Source: Methanobrevibacter sp.
GTDB lineage: Archaea > Methanobacteriota > Methanobacteria > Methanobacteriales > Methanobacteriaceae
NCBI GenBank assembly: GCA_017473945.1
Contig: JAFUIW010000027.1
Span: forward strand, 1-41,783
Length of the DNA stretch: 41,783 bases
Direction of reading: 5' to 3'
The position numbers and the translations under genes are program-made. Shown in pieces: positions 5,672 to 8,975 of this stretch. Below the pieces are notes generated by a model. It made no database searches, was not told the DNA's origin, and worked only from the letters and a program-made list of their open reading frames with translations. Position 1 is the stretch's first letter. Each line of letters starts with the position of its first letter.

Positions 5672-6085
5672 ATGGTTAAATACGAACATGAAATTGGAAT
5701 TACAAAAGGAACCCCTGTAGAAAAATTTGTTGCTGGAAACTTTGAAGGAGAAACCAACGAAGTTGGAATCTACTTAGCTATGTCCAGACAAGCTTCCCGT
5801 GAAGGTTATGGGGAATTAGCTGAAGTATTCAAAAGATTAGCTTGGGAAGAAGCTGAACACGCTGCAAGATTCTGTGAAATGAACGGAATCATCAAACCTA
5901 CCCTCAAAGAAAACATCGAATGGATGATGGGTGGGGAAAAAATGGCTAACGCAGAAAAAAGAGAAGCTTCCGAAAAAGCCGAAGAAGCAGGTATCGAAAC
6001 TGCTGCTGATTTCTTCAGAGAAAGTTCCAAAGACGAAGGTCGTCATTACAAAATCTTAGAAGGAATCTTAGAAAGATACTTCTAG
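5672..6085 (+). CDS. Rubrerythrin-like ferritin-fold diiron protein (no rubredoxin domain)
   Basis: 137-residue four-helix diiron protein, probably an NAD(P)H- or F420-linked peroxidase acting with FprA. The ligand carboxylates are in GETNEVG, EEAEHAA (ExxH), the EKAEEAG region and the C-terminal KDEGRHY (ExxH). The usual C-terminal rubredoxin Cys4 domain is absent, so electrons must come from a separate partner. The start at 5672 has an ideal GGTGAT ribosome site at 5663-5668. The gene begins 10 bases after fprA, which supports one oxidative-stress operon. It ends just before a hairpin with a T-rich tail. Confidence 0.9.
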
Positions 6086-6119: not shown

Positions 6120-6140
6120 ACTATTTCTTTTTTCAAAAAC

Positions 6141-6150
6141 TTTATAAATA
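6141..6150 (+). promoter_or_regulatory. TATA-like element for a possible plus-strand RNA
   Basis: AAACTTTATAAATA is a strong archaeal TATA match lying just after the rubrerythrin terminator and pointing into the structured region. It predicts a transcript starting near 6170 that would run antisense to the small hydrophobic reading frame at 6276-6368. Inference only. Confidence 0.35.
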
Positions 6151-6176
6151 ATAAAAAGATAATTATTATTAATTTT

Positions 6177-6488
6177 ATTAAACATTTGTTTAATGGAATT
6201 GGTAATGAATCTATAGCAAGGAAAAAACAGACGGCGAGAATTTAATTCTCTAAAACCCTGCTAATCATCGATTCATTACCTGTTTACTAGTTTTTTATCA
6301 TTTGGTAATAATAAATACATTGAAAAAATTATTATTAATGTTAAATTAATATTAACGTTCAATTCCATTATACTACCCCCTTTAACTTATAAGGGCGAGG
6401 AATCAAAACAAGCAAACACCTTACACCAGTCAACGTCTGTTTTTTTAAAAAAAAAAGTTGTAGGCAATAACCCGCAACTTTAGACTGG
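6177..6488. ncRNA. Densely structured region: nested hairpins and long-range pairings around a tiny hydrophobic ORF
   Basis: Perfect or near-perfect inverted repeats stack here. ATTAAAC/GTTTAAT (6177-6183/6188-6194). GGTAATGAATC (6201-6211) with GATTCATTACC (6270-6280), enclosing TAGCAAGG/CCCTGCTA (one mismatch) and GAGAATT/AATTCTC. TAATGGAATTG (6191-6201) with CAATTCCATTA (6360-6370). AAAAAACAGACG (6222-6233) with CGTCTGTTTTTT (6434-6445). AAGTTG/CAACTT (6455-6460/6475-6480), enclosed by CCAGTC/GACTGG (6426-6431/6483-6488). In a minus-strand transcript the second-last long pairing covers the start codon of the 30-codon frame and the last joins 5' leader to 3' end, as in hok-type toxin mRNAs. 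The same pairings form in a plus-strand RNA, so strand is undecided. A palindromic MITE-like element is the alternative. Confidence 0.5.
6276..6368 (-). CDS. Putative small hydrophobic peptide, 30 aa (type I toxin-like)
   Basis: An ATG frame of 30 codons. Residues 1-6 are short and polar. Residues 5-21 are almost entirely hydrophobic (NLTLIIIFSMYLLL), enough for one membrane helix, then comes Pro22 and the charged tail NDKKLVNR. This layout (single helix, charged C-terminus, about 30 residues) is that of Fst/Ldr/Hok-like type I toxins. A GGGGGT ribosome site lies at 6377-6382, 8 bases before the start. The start codon (6366-6368) sits inside an 11-base inverted repeat whose partner is about 160 bases downstream in the same transcript, and the stop lies in the arm of a strong hairpin. 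No homologue is recognised. In AT-rich DNA a chance frame of this size is quite possible, so the case rests on the surrounding structure. Confidence 0.35.
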   Translation of the reverse strand: MELNVNINLTLIIIFSMYLLLPNDKKLVNR

Positions 6489-6610
6489 ATTTTTAATAAT
6501 TAGTTTTCACCAATTAAGAGAAAAAAATTTCTCCAATAATCTATTATATTGTATAATATTTAAAATAAGCAGTTCTTTTTGGCTACAATTTTACAAACTC
6601 AAAGCAATTT

Positions 6611-7741
6611 TTATAAAAATCCTGCAACAATACTGAATACTATTACCATTGCCATGACAACTGACAATGCATTAACGAGTGGTTTGTAGTGCTCTTCAGA
6701 CAGTTTATAGCTCAATAATATTTCAAGCATGTAACCACCATCCAAAGGTTTCAGTGGAAGTAGATTAAATAGCCCAATTCCAAGGTTAAGCATGAACACC
6801 CATTGGAAAAGTTCAAGAAGCTCGAATAAAATCCAAGGTAGCGGACCTAAACTATTATTTACAAGCTCGAAATGTTTGTTTGCCTGGATTCCAAAAAATC
6901 CTCTGGACTCATTGTTTGGATTCTTGTCAAGGGTAAGCGAATATGTACCCTGATCCGTTTTGACACTTACATTATCCCCCGGACTGTAAGAACTTAGAAC
7001 ATTTGTATAGTCTGTTGCATTGCCTATAGTCTGATTGTCAATTGCCTGTAAAACCATGCCTTCCTTTAACACACCATCTGAAGGTGAATCAGTAACAATT
7101 CTGTCAATAGCTATTCCGTCTTCTGCAAAGTAATATGGAATTCCAGCTGATATCAGTGACACCAATAAAATTGCAATGACTGCCAATGAAATATTTGCAA
7201 TGGAACCTGCCGCATAAACCCTAAGCCTTGAAGACCTTTTGGCCGCTTTCAGCTCATCCTCGTCAGGTTCTACAAATGCACCCGGAATGATTGCAAACAA
7301 GAGTAAGCCGATTGATTTGATTGAAATTTTCTCACCGACTGACTGGACACCATGTGATAATTCATGAACTATCAAAACAGTTGCCAGAGCTATCAGACCA
7401 TAGAAAAATGGAATATAAATTGATGAGCCCGGCATCTCCACACCCGGAATCACTATTGAAACCGCCGGCGTATCGAAAACTGATGGCAGGGAACTTATTA
7501 ATGTCCCTGTAATAAAAATCATGGCTCCAAAGGCCACGACAATTCCAACATTCATGTACCACCGCCAGAATGTCGGAGAAAAATTAGAAATTCTGGATAT
7601 AAGTCCCCTGAGTCTTTGAGTCTTCCACATTATAACCGGGAAGTTTATCTCAAATCCATGACTTTCAAGCTTGTCATGTAACACTGCAGACAATATCCAG
7701 ATGACAGCAAAAGCTATCAAATAATAATAAATACCATTCAT
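6611..7741 (-). CDS. Site-2-type membrane metalloprotease (M50) with PDZ domain
   Basis: Integral-membrane zinc protease of the M50/S2P family, about 376 residues, that cuts substrates within or next to membranes. It has an N-terminal membrane segment (IYYYLIAFAVIWILSAVL), the zinc motif His126-Glu127-x-x-His130 (LIVHELSHG) in a helix, a PDZ-like insert (VLKEGMVLQAIDNQTIGN) and the second catalytic motif LPLKPLDGGYML near the C-terminus (Asp ligand in LDGG), ending in a final helix. The ATG at 7741 has GAGGAAGTG ahead of it and lies 16 bases after the moeA stop. The upstream ATG at 7777 would overlap moeA by 20 bases and adds a non-family extension. Substrate unknown. It is the last gene of the ileS-purL-moeA run. 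Confidence 0.9.
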   Translation of the reverse strand: MNGIYYYLIAFAVIWILSAVLHDKLESHGFEINFPVIMWKTQRLRGLISRISNFSPTFWRWYMNVGIVVAFGAMIFITGTLISSLPSVFDTPAVSIVIPGVEMPGSSIYIPFFYGLIALATVLIVHELSHGVQSVGEKISIKSIGLLLFAIIPGAFVEPDEDELKAAKRSSRLRVYAAGSIANISLAVIAILLVSLISAGIPYYFAEDGIAIDRIVTDSPSDGVLKEGMVLQAIDNQTIGNATDYTNVLSSYSPGDNVSVKTDQGTYSLTLDKNPNNESRGFFGIQANKHFELVNNSLGPLPWILFELLELFQWVFMLNLGIGLFNLLPLKPLDGGYMLEILLSYKLSEEHYKPLVNALSVVMAMVIVFSIVAGFL

Positions 7742-7757
7742 TAAAAATGCACTTCCT

Positions 7758-8975
7758 CTACCAAAGTAGTGAATCAAACATCACAACATCAACTATATCA
7801 CCTTTCTGATATCCTTCATCATTTTCGTTTATGATGATATAGCTGTTCGCCTCAACCATTGACCGAATAATGCCGGAACCTCTGTTCAGGACATGCTTTG
7901 CATAATCGTCATCTGCAACCGCACGGATGAAATCGGTTCTTCCAAGTTGGGAAGGGATTTTAAGTTGAGATTCACGGTTTAGAATATGGAAATCAAATGA
8001 CCTTCCCTGCATTTCAAACAGGTATTTTCTTGCAAATACATCAAATTGAGTCATTGCAGCCACAGGCTGGCCTGAAAATGTAAATATGATTTTACCATTG
8101 ACAATTCCTGCACCTGCAGGTTTTCCAGGTCTCATTGCAACACCGTGGAATAGGATTTCTCCAATGTCATCGACAACCTCCAAAACAACATCCCCTTTAC
8201 TGATGGCCGTTCCTCCGGTTGTCATTATTACATCGTAGTCTTCGCTAGCTTTAAGGATAGCTTCCCTGACTTCATCAAATGTGTCACCAGCATGGCCAAT
8301 TTCACAGATGGCTCCGGAATCCTCAATCATAGCTTTTATTGTGAACTGATTGGAGTTGATGATTTTGGCCTTATCTATTTCCTCTTTGGTCGGTTCTACA
8401 AGCTCATTGCCGGTTATGATAACCTTGACTTTAGGTTTTTTATATACATTGACTGTATCATAACCTGCTGAAGCGATTAATCCCAATTCCTGATATCTGA
8501 TAAATGTGTTTTTATCCAATATCTTTTGACCTTTTTCAATGTCTTCAGATTTCGGAGAAACATTTTCACCAGGAGTGACCTGGGAATAGATTGTCAGTTC
8601 ATCACCGTCGGTTGTGGTGTATTCCTTCATGATGACCGCATTGGCACCTTCAGGAATTGGAGCGCCGGTAGCGATTACGATAGCTTCATTTTCGCCTACT
8701 GTCTTGTCGGAAAATTCCCCAGCTCCGATTGCATCTATTATATTTAGTTGTTTAGGAGCTGATTGGGATGCACCGAAAGTGTTTTCACCGATTACTGCAA
8801 AACCGTCCATTGCAGATTTATCGAATGGTGGTGAATCATGAAAAGCCATGATATCTTCAGCCAGAACTCTCTTGTGAGCATCATGAATAGATATCTCTTC
8901 TGAATCTGTGTATTTCTGATTATCTGCTATTAGCTTTAATGCATTTCCAACTGAATCCAATTTAGATAAAAACAT
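7758..8975 (-). CDS. moeA: Molybdopterin molybdotransferase MoeA
   Basis: Inserts molybdate or tungstate into adenylylated molybdopterin, the last step of Mo/W cofactor synthesis needed by formylmethanofuran and formate dehydrogenases. The 405-residue length is normal. Family motifs are visible: SPPFDKSAMDGFA near residue 55, IATGAPIPEGANAV, the MoCF-binding domain with VKVIITGNELVEP and MTTGGTAISKGD, then MRPGKPAGAG and FSGQPVAAM, with a C-terminal beta domain. The start has a GGGGGAG ribosome site. It lies 22 bases after purL and precedes the M50 protease. Methanogens often carry two MoeA paralogues (one possibly fused to a PBP domain); only this one is in view. Confidence 0.93.
   Translation of the reverse strand: MFLSKLDSVGNALKLIADNQKYTDSEEISIHDAHKRVLAEDIMAFHDSPPFDKSAMDGFAVIGENTFGASQSAPKQLNIIDAIGAGEFSDKTVGENEAIVIATGAPIPEGANAVIMKEYTTTDGDELTIYSQVTPGENVSPKSEDIEKGQKILDKNTFIRYQELGLIASAGYDTVNVYKKPKVKVIITGNELVEPTKEEIDKAKIINSNQFTIKAMIEDSGAICEIGHAGDTFDEVREAILKASEDYDVIMTTGGTAISKGDVVLEVVDDIGEILFHGVAMRPGKPAGAGIVNGKIIFTFSGQPVAAMTQFDVFARKYLFEMQGRSFDFHILNRESQLKIPSQLGRTDFIRAVADDDYAKHVLNRGSGIIRSMVEANSYIIINENDEGYQKGDIVDVVMFDSLLW

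Follow-up and report, generated by a model that had tools for sequence, protein, structure and literature searches.

Type I toxins of bacteria are hydrophobic peptides of fewer than 60 amino acids, often with a positively charged C-terminus, and sequestration of the ribosome site is a feature of their mRNAs (PMC8309996). Such systems had been found in three bacterial phyla only before a cyanobacterial one was proposed in a 2025 paper (PMC12390103), and our search of mainly open-access literature gave no archaeal example. Here we describe a locus from Methanobrevibacter that is apparently the first type I-like module in archaea, with both its transcription and the toxicity of its peptide being predictions. 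Its closest working analogue is the SOS-controlled dinQ/agrB system of E. coli, in which dinQ encodes a 27-residue peptide with a single membrane helix on an ~330-nt mRNA, the promoter is under a regulon repressor, and a small antisense RNA comes from the opposite strand (PMC3567139). The antisense complementarity of dinQ/agrB is about 30 nt, however, and the sRNA is encoded apart, whereas the antisense RNA of our element would cover nearly the entire mRNA; moreover, no sequence relation between the two was found and the promoters of the element are archaeal TATA boxes. In the zorO/OrzO, Ibs/Sib and BsrG/SR4 systems the membrane peptides are likewise short, and control involves a sequestered ribosome site, an antisense or partly complementary RNA, or both (PMC8309996), but they are known from bacteria only (PMC12390103) and the peptide described here matches no family in Pfam or NCBIfam. 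Fst/RNAII of the pAD1 par locus shares with the element a short hydrophobic peptide, a ribosome site within an intramolecular stem-loop and convergent RNAs (PMC8309996). The par RNAs interact via a shared terminator and direct repeats, whereas in the element the antisense RNA would lie inside the mRNA span and direct repeats of this kind were not found. Finally, hok/Sok resembles the element in having long-range pairing between the leader and the 3' part of the toxin mRNA, together with an antisense RNA (PMC8309996). In contrast to hok, we noticed no overlapping mok-like frame in the element, pairing of the start codon with the 3' end is not conserved, the peptide is about half the size, and homology to Hok was not detected with Pfam or NCBIfam. 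The comparisons with par (Fst/RNAII), hok/Sok and Ibs/Sib-type systems rest partly on background outside that review.

The locus lies in the window, i.e. the whole stretch of 41,783 nucleotides that was analysed (contig C16 of genome G000), where it is flanked on one side by a rubrerythrin gene (5672-6085, plus strand) and on the other by a gene for an M50 peptidase (6611-7777, minus strand; confirmed with Pfam). It is a module of ~480 bases at 6130-6612, comprising a minus-strand small-peptide gene, a convergent plus-strand promoter and RNA folds. The initial annotation had drawn the locus at 6177-6488, which is too small because it missed the minus-strand promoter of the peptide at 6557-6564 as well as the operator-like repeats at ~6566-6611. 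Four conserved layers coincide here, namely the peptide frame, the peptide promoter with its repeats, the antisense promoter and a covarying RNA structure. The segment 6172-6495 folds far better than dinucleotide shuffles on either strand (z -4.7 for plus and -5.8 for minus; 0 of 100 shuffles were as stable). The features of the element are:

6141-6148, plus strand: TATA box TTTATAAA of the predicted antisense RNA (predicted start near 6170), kept in all members.
6170-6493, plus strand: predicted antisense RNA of about 320 nt, ending near the T run at 6490-6494, with promoter, conserved fold and G-U pairs favouring plus.
6172-6199, plus strand: P1, the 5'-terminal hairpin of the antisense RNA, with 13 G-U pairs on plus versus one A.C.
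6201-6281, plus strand: P2 domain with an inner hairpin at 6236-6250 and compensatory changes in P2a, P2b and P3.
6222-6233, plus strand: left arm of the long-range helix LR1; its core ACAGACG (6227-6233) sits in the P2 loop, giving a pseudoknot-like contact.
6276-6368, minus strand: 30-codon frame MELNVNINLTLIIIFSMYLLLPNDKKLVNR for a hydrophobic peptide, the only frame open in 14 of 14 members.
6282-6292, plus strand: left arm of the long-range helix LR2, pairing with 6407-6417.
6371-6400, minus strand: putative hairpin sequestering the ribosome site (GGGGG, 6376-6380), in the same place in 13 of 13 members tested.
6407-6417, plus strand: right arm of LR2, covered by the same arm-level test as the left arm.
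6426-6488, either strand: hairpin of CCAGTC (6426-6431) with GACTGG (6483-6488), inner AAGTTG/CAACTT.
6434-6445, plus strand: right arm of LR1, core CGTCTGT (6434-6440), covarying with the left arm.
6517-6534, minus strand: hairpin at the 5' end of the peptide mRNA, with arms at 6517-6523 and 6528-6534, recurring with differing sequence in most members.
6557-6564, minus strand: TATA box TTTAAATA of the peptide mRNA (predicted start near 6533), kept in 14 of 15 distinct members (all but L078) at constant spacing to the 5' hairpin.
6566-6611, minus strand: tandem operator-like repeats of ~20 bp upstream of the peptide promoter, with AATTGCTTTGAGTTTGTAAAATTG at 6586-6609, kept in members of both genomic sites.

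Relatives first came to light when 67 Methanobrevibacter-type genomes, all from the genus of the window, were searched at the DNA level, and a covariance model (R1) built from the plus-strand core was then searched across family genomes. R1 finds exactly one copy each in 16 of the 67 genus genomes, leaving three quarters of them without the element, and none in the remainder of the 139 family genomes searched (17 genera). Since the cores of L065 and L066 are identical, the 16 copies amount to 15 distinct ones. They occupy two genomic sites, with seven at rubrerythrin/M50 and nine beside mntP (manganese efflux) or in its neighbourhood. A pattern scan of named genomes gave matches in uncultured rumen and gut Methanobrevibacter and in M. 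thaueri; four further matches, to unrelated bacteria, were attributed to chance.

The minus-strand frame of 30 codons at 6276-6368, which had been noted behind a GGGGG(T) ribosome site, is indeed there, and the proposed search for other copies with a conserved hydrophobic peptide was rewarding, yielding 16 genomes and a frame of 26-35 codons in 14 distinct copies, in most of which a G-rich ribosome site is recognisable. The hydrophobic core with a charged tail described for the window peptide recurs in the 14 intact members (KD17 about 2.0-2.9), the tail being charged or polar, so that with fewer than 60 residues, its hydrophobicity and one predicted membrane helix the peptide has the dimensions of a type I toxin. 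Searches of Pfam and NCBIfam returned no family match, and the sequence is strongly divergent between the two site groups. The frame is open in 14 of the 15 distinct relatives and alternative frames are mostly interrupted by stops; substitution tests weigh more, however, because the frame had been chosen for being open. In a set of five related copies, each 27 codons long, the three codon positions have 14, 7 and 18 variable columns out of 26 (permutation p = 0.0015), and the pooled pN/pS is 0.43 when the first codons of the window copy are added to these five. Together with the ribosome site, these signs of selection on the frame indicate that the peptide is really encoded. Relatives in which the frame is broken while the repeats persist, a finding that would have spoken against the locus, come down to L079 (G039:C58), 1 of 15, where the RNA fold is kept. 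The window copy itself carries a 1-nt insertion within 6276-6310 relative to its nearest relatives (L068 being the closest), which changes the last ~10 residues from YLLYYKIKNK to YLLLPNDKKLVNR, and its function may be altered as a consequence.

Each predicted transcript starts about 26 nt after its TATA box with a hairpin of copy-specific sequence; the exceptions are a weak mRNA hairpin in L074 and a missing antisense one in L078. From the positions of the TATA boxes and the 5' hairpins, we predict an mRNA running leftwards from about 6533 and an antisense RNA that starts near 6170 and ends at ~6490. The plus-strand TATA box of the initial annotation is thus present and kept throughout, in the variant form TATATAAA in one copy and TTTATAAG in another, although at 6141-6148 it lies just outside the span given for the locus. 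The predicted antisense RNA, with its own promoter and fold both conserved, covers the peptide gene, most of the mRNA leader and the 3' part of the mRNA, and would lie wholly within the mRNA span. In the decayed copy L078 (G057:C27), the peptide promoter, leader, ribosome site and P1 hairpin are lost, and the antisense promoter and frame are kept.

The check for covarying pairs over Methanobrevibacter genomes turned up compensatory changes in 17 of the 33 core pairs, with 95.3% of cells paired in the model-fitted alignment of the 15 distinct copies. For four of the five measures, the value of the real alignment is not attained by any of 500 shuffles, and sliding the alignment as a control lowers pairing to 39-50%. 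Because this alignment was fitted to the structure, tests at the level of the arms are important. For LR2, 131 of 154 cells are Watson-Crick versus 77.6 expected if arms are reshuffled between members (0 of 20,000 such draws reach it), and pairing is kept even though the LR2 sequence is wholly different between groups; the arms of LR1 and LR2 were anchored by eye, which favours pairing. LR2 encloses the ribosome site and all of the frame except its 3' end. LR1 corresponds to the 12-base repeat seen earlier at 6222-6233/6434-6445 (100% identity), which is both conserved and covarying (left-arm core with 6434-6440, p = 3e-4). The hairpins of the initial annotation are likewise present. A hairpin at 6426-6488 folds on both strands; in L071 its arms change from CCAGTC/GACTGG to CCAGCC/GGCTGG.

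A different picture emerges for the 11-base repeat over the start codon. It is present in the window, as the exact 11-mer within a 14-nt match of 93% identity (6188-6201/6360-6373), but it is not conserved, and the hok-like sequestration of the start codon by the 3' end that had been built on it is not supported, the pairing being missing in 10 of 13 intact members and found only in the window, in L068 and partly in L065. What is conserved in its place is the ribosome-site hairpin together with the helix enclosing the frame. In 13 copies, the mean probability of the ribosome site being paired is 0.92, compared with 0.79 when the sequence upstream is shuffled (Wilcoxon p = 2.4e-4), the latter value showing that pairing is already high by chance where the site is G-rich. 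As modelled, the mRNA would thus carry a translational lock through ribosome-site sequestration, as type I toxin mRNAs do.

Which strand does the structure serve? In the core, 28 G-U pairs on plus stand against 10 A.C mismatches, which are G-U on minus (p = 0.005, with cells that are not independent; 10 versus 5 by pairs). The bias to plus is strongest in P1 and P2a, while P2b goes the opposite way (3 versus 9); of the long-range helices, LR2 is even (8 versus 8) and LR1 favours plus (10 versus 3). The bias implies that the plus RNA is under structural selection, and on these sequence grounds the core fold would serve mainly the antisense RNA, with the mRNA probably under structural selection too. 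The G-U preference in P1, P2a and LR1, the strong, canonical plus TATA box and the plus core being the best conserved part of the element could also be explained by a structured plus-strand RNA, regulatory or catalytic, as the main product, with the minus frame secondary. We regard this as rather improbable, given that the minus frame and ribosome site are conserved with coding-type substitutions, that conservation is just as high in the minus promoter and the repeats upstream of it, that P2b runs counter to the bias, and that Rfam offers no match. The scan of Rfam was empty at gathering threshold, relaxed thresholds likewise gave nothing above threshold, and the best type I antitoxin RNA, rdlD, scored 14.6 bits versus a cut-off of 50; an identity as RNase P or SRP RNA was dropped, Rfam support being absent. 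The structured plus-strand ncRNA that the initial annotation offered as an alternative is nevertheless partly right, because the plus RNA is structured and appears to be the antisense partner.

Its other alternative, a palindromic MITE, fares worse. Presence and absence among genomes and two insertion sites are what a miniature mobile element or another non-functional repeat might leave behind, and several genomes that lack the element at rubrerythrin/M50 have an empty site there, with a gap of 47-84 bp versus 531 bp in the window. However, there is exactly one copy per genome in 16 of 16, always at one of the two fixed sites, and neither terminal inverted repeats nor a target duplication was seen. 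Collections of phages, plasmids and viral contigs contain no match to the element, and neither conserved promoters nor codon-level selection nor covariation is expected of such a repeat, making this explanation very improbable indeed.

A more serious rival is suggested by the association with mntP. MntS of E. coli reportedly acts on MntP, and the peptide could similarly be a non-toxic small membrane regulator, for example one that modulates a transporter and is perhaps linked to mntP, whose translation is tuned by the antisense RNA. Besides the nine of 16 copies near mntP, purifying selection on the peptide and its vertical maintenance at two sites fit this idea, as does the leader of mntP itself, which in five mntP-site genomes has the operator/TATA/5' hairpin arrangement of the peptide gene. 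The resemblance of the peptide promoter to mntP-type promoters means that a physiological role for the peptide is possible. Yet the seven copies at rubrerythrin/M50 are not near mntP, sequence conservation between the groups is poor, unlike what a specific transporter partner would impose, and most genomes of the genus lack the element, two copies of which have decayed. In addition, it is typically toxic products that are repressed in layers like these, with a ribosome-site hairpin, clamps and an antisense RNA overlapping the whole gene. On balance we consider a non-toxic regulator unlikely, though less so than either of the two explanations above.

The shared mntP leader (L069, L072, L073, L075 and L079) lies ~100-250 nt upstream of mntP (in L073 at about 6200-6310, minus). 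Behind its 5' hairpin come a conserved linker resembling CCGACCGTGCGA, then another hairpin and a CU-rich tail, and its only match in Rfam is a weak, sub-threshold one to AS-pc01. We regard it as a candidate for either a small RNA or a leader that regulates manganese efflux.

The operator-like repeats extend beyond these genes. The AATTGCTTTGAGTTTGTAAAATTG motif has nine exact sites in the genome versus none for a reversed control, and in related genomes similar repeats precede a RhuM-family gene, RlaP-type RNA-repair genes, mntP and many hypothetical genes, which suggests that they mark a host regulon of these methanogens with an undescribed motif. In G000, the tandem ~20-bp motif AATTGnTnTnAnTnTGTAAnATTG occurs in the window at 6586-6609 (minus) and at C12:5076-5099, C30:1452-1475, C53:16002-16025, C59:4480-4503, C76:381-404, C103:6204-6227, C135:26380-26403 and C140:65343-65366.

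We therefore return to the type I-like reading. An architecture of hydrophobic peptide, overlapping antisense RNA, leader/3' pairing and structured RNA is strongly supported by conservation and covariation in the 15 distinct relatives; the toxin-antitoxin-like interpretation of the initial annotation is supported in part, without its hok-like start-codon step. The resemblance to type I systems lies in the size and hydrophobicity of the peptide, the sequestered ribosome site, the overlapping antisense RNA, the clamps, and the patchy presence with decayed copies. Taking together peptide conservation, both promoters, both folds, covariation and antisense overlap, all drawn from comparison of the copies, we consider a type I toxin-antitoxin-like module with an antisense-controlled peptide the probable identity of the element, a wording that stops short of placing it within type I itself. 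From these data we infer that both strands are transcribed, that control is exerted through RNA pairing and that the peptide is toxic. A regulated minus-strand promoter would produce a ~370-nt mRNA for a membrane peptide of 26-35 residues with a single helix, the ribosome site being held in a local hairpin and two long-range helices clamping the leader to the 3' part. The convergent promoter at the far end would give the ~320-nt structured antisense RNA, complementary to most of the leader, the ribosome site and the frame. During growth, this RNA would base-pair to the mRNA, contact probably beginning where the mirror-image folds leave loops exposed, and the duplex would block translation or be marked for decay. 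Upon induction of the promoter with its operators, or depletion of the antisense RNA, the peptide could be made and act on the membrane.

A bolder version, to which we give even chances, is that archaea here have their first known type I family in the full sense. Its pseudoknotted antisense RNA of ~320 nt would be nested within the span of the toxin mRNA, the two RNAs having mirror-image folds, and the toxin promoter would be one that belongs to a host regulon with tandem operators also in front of mntP, RlaP RNA-repair and other accessory genes. If the covarying single-copy module holds, RNA-controlled toxins would extend to a second domain of life, with a small and directly testable locus in gut methanogens relevant to rumen methane. 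The covariance model and the coordinates of the relatives can be used for searches of metatranscriptomes.

Two minor observations concern other loci. At L167:419-496 (G049:C13, plus), the same type of promoter precedes a different hydrophobic peptide of 25 residues, MDKIKVILIILEIIKFILSVVCIFR, for which a search for close relatives found none; it has a good ribosome site and a possible convergent TATA box ~130 bp downstream, and is possibly a second, unrelated type I-like locus. In the window, a transposase-like ORF is present at 86-1063 on the plus strand.
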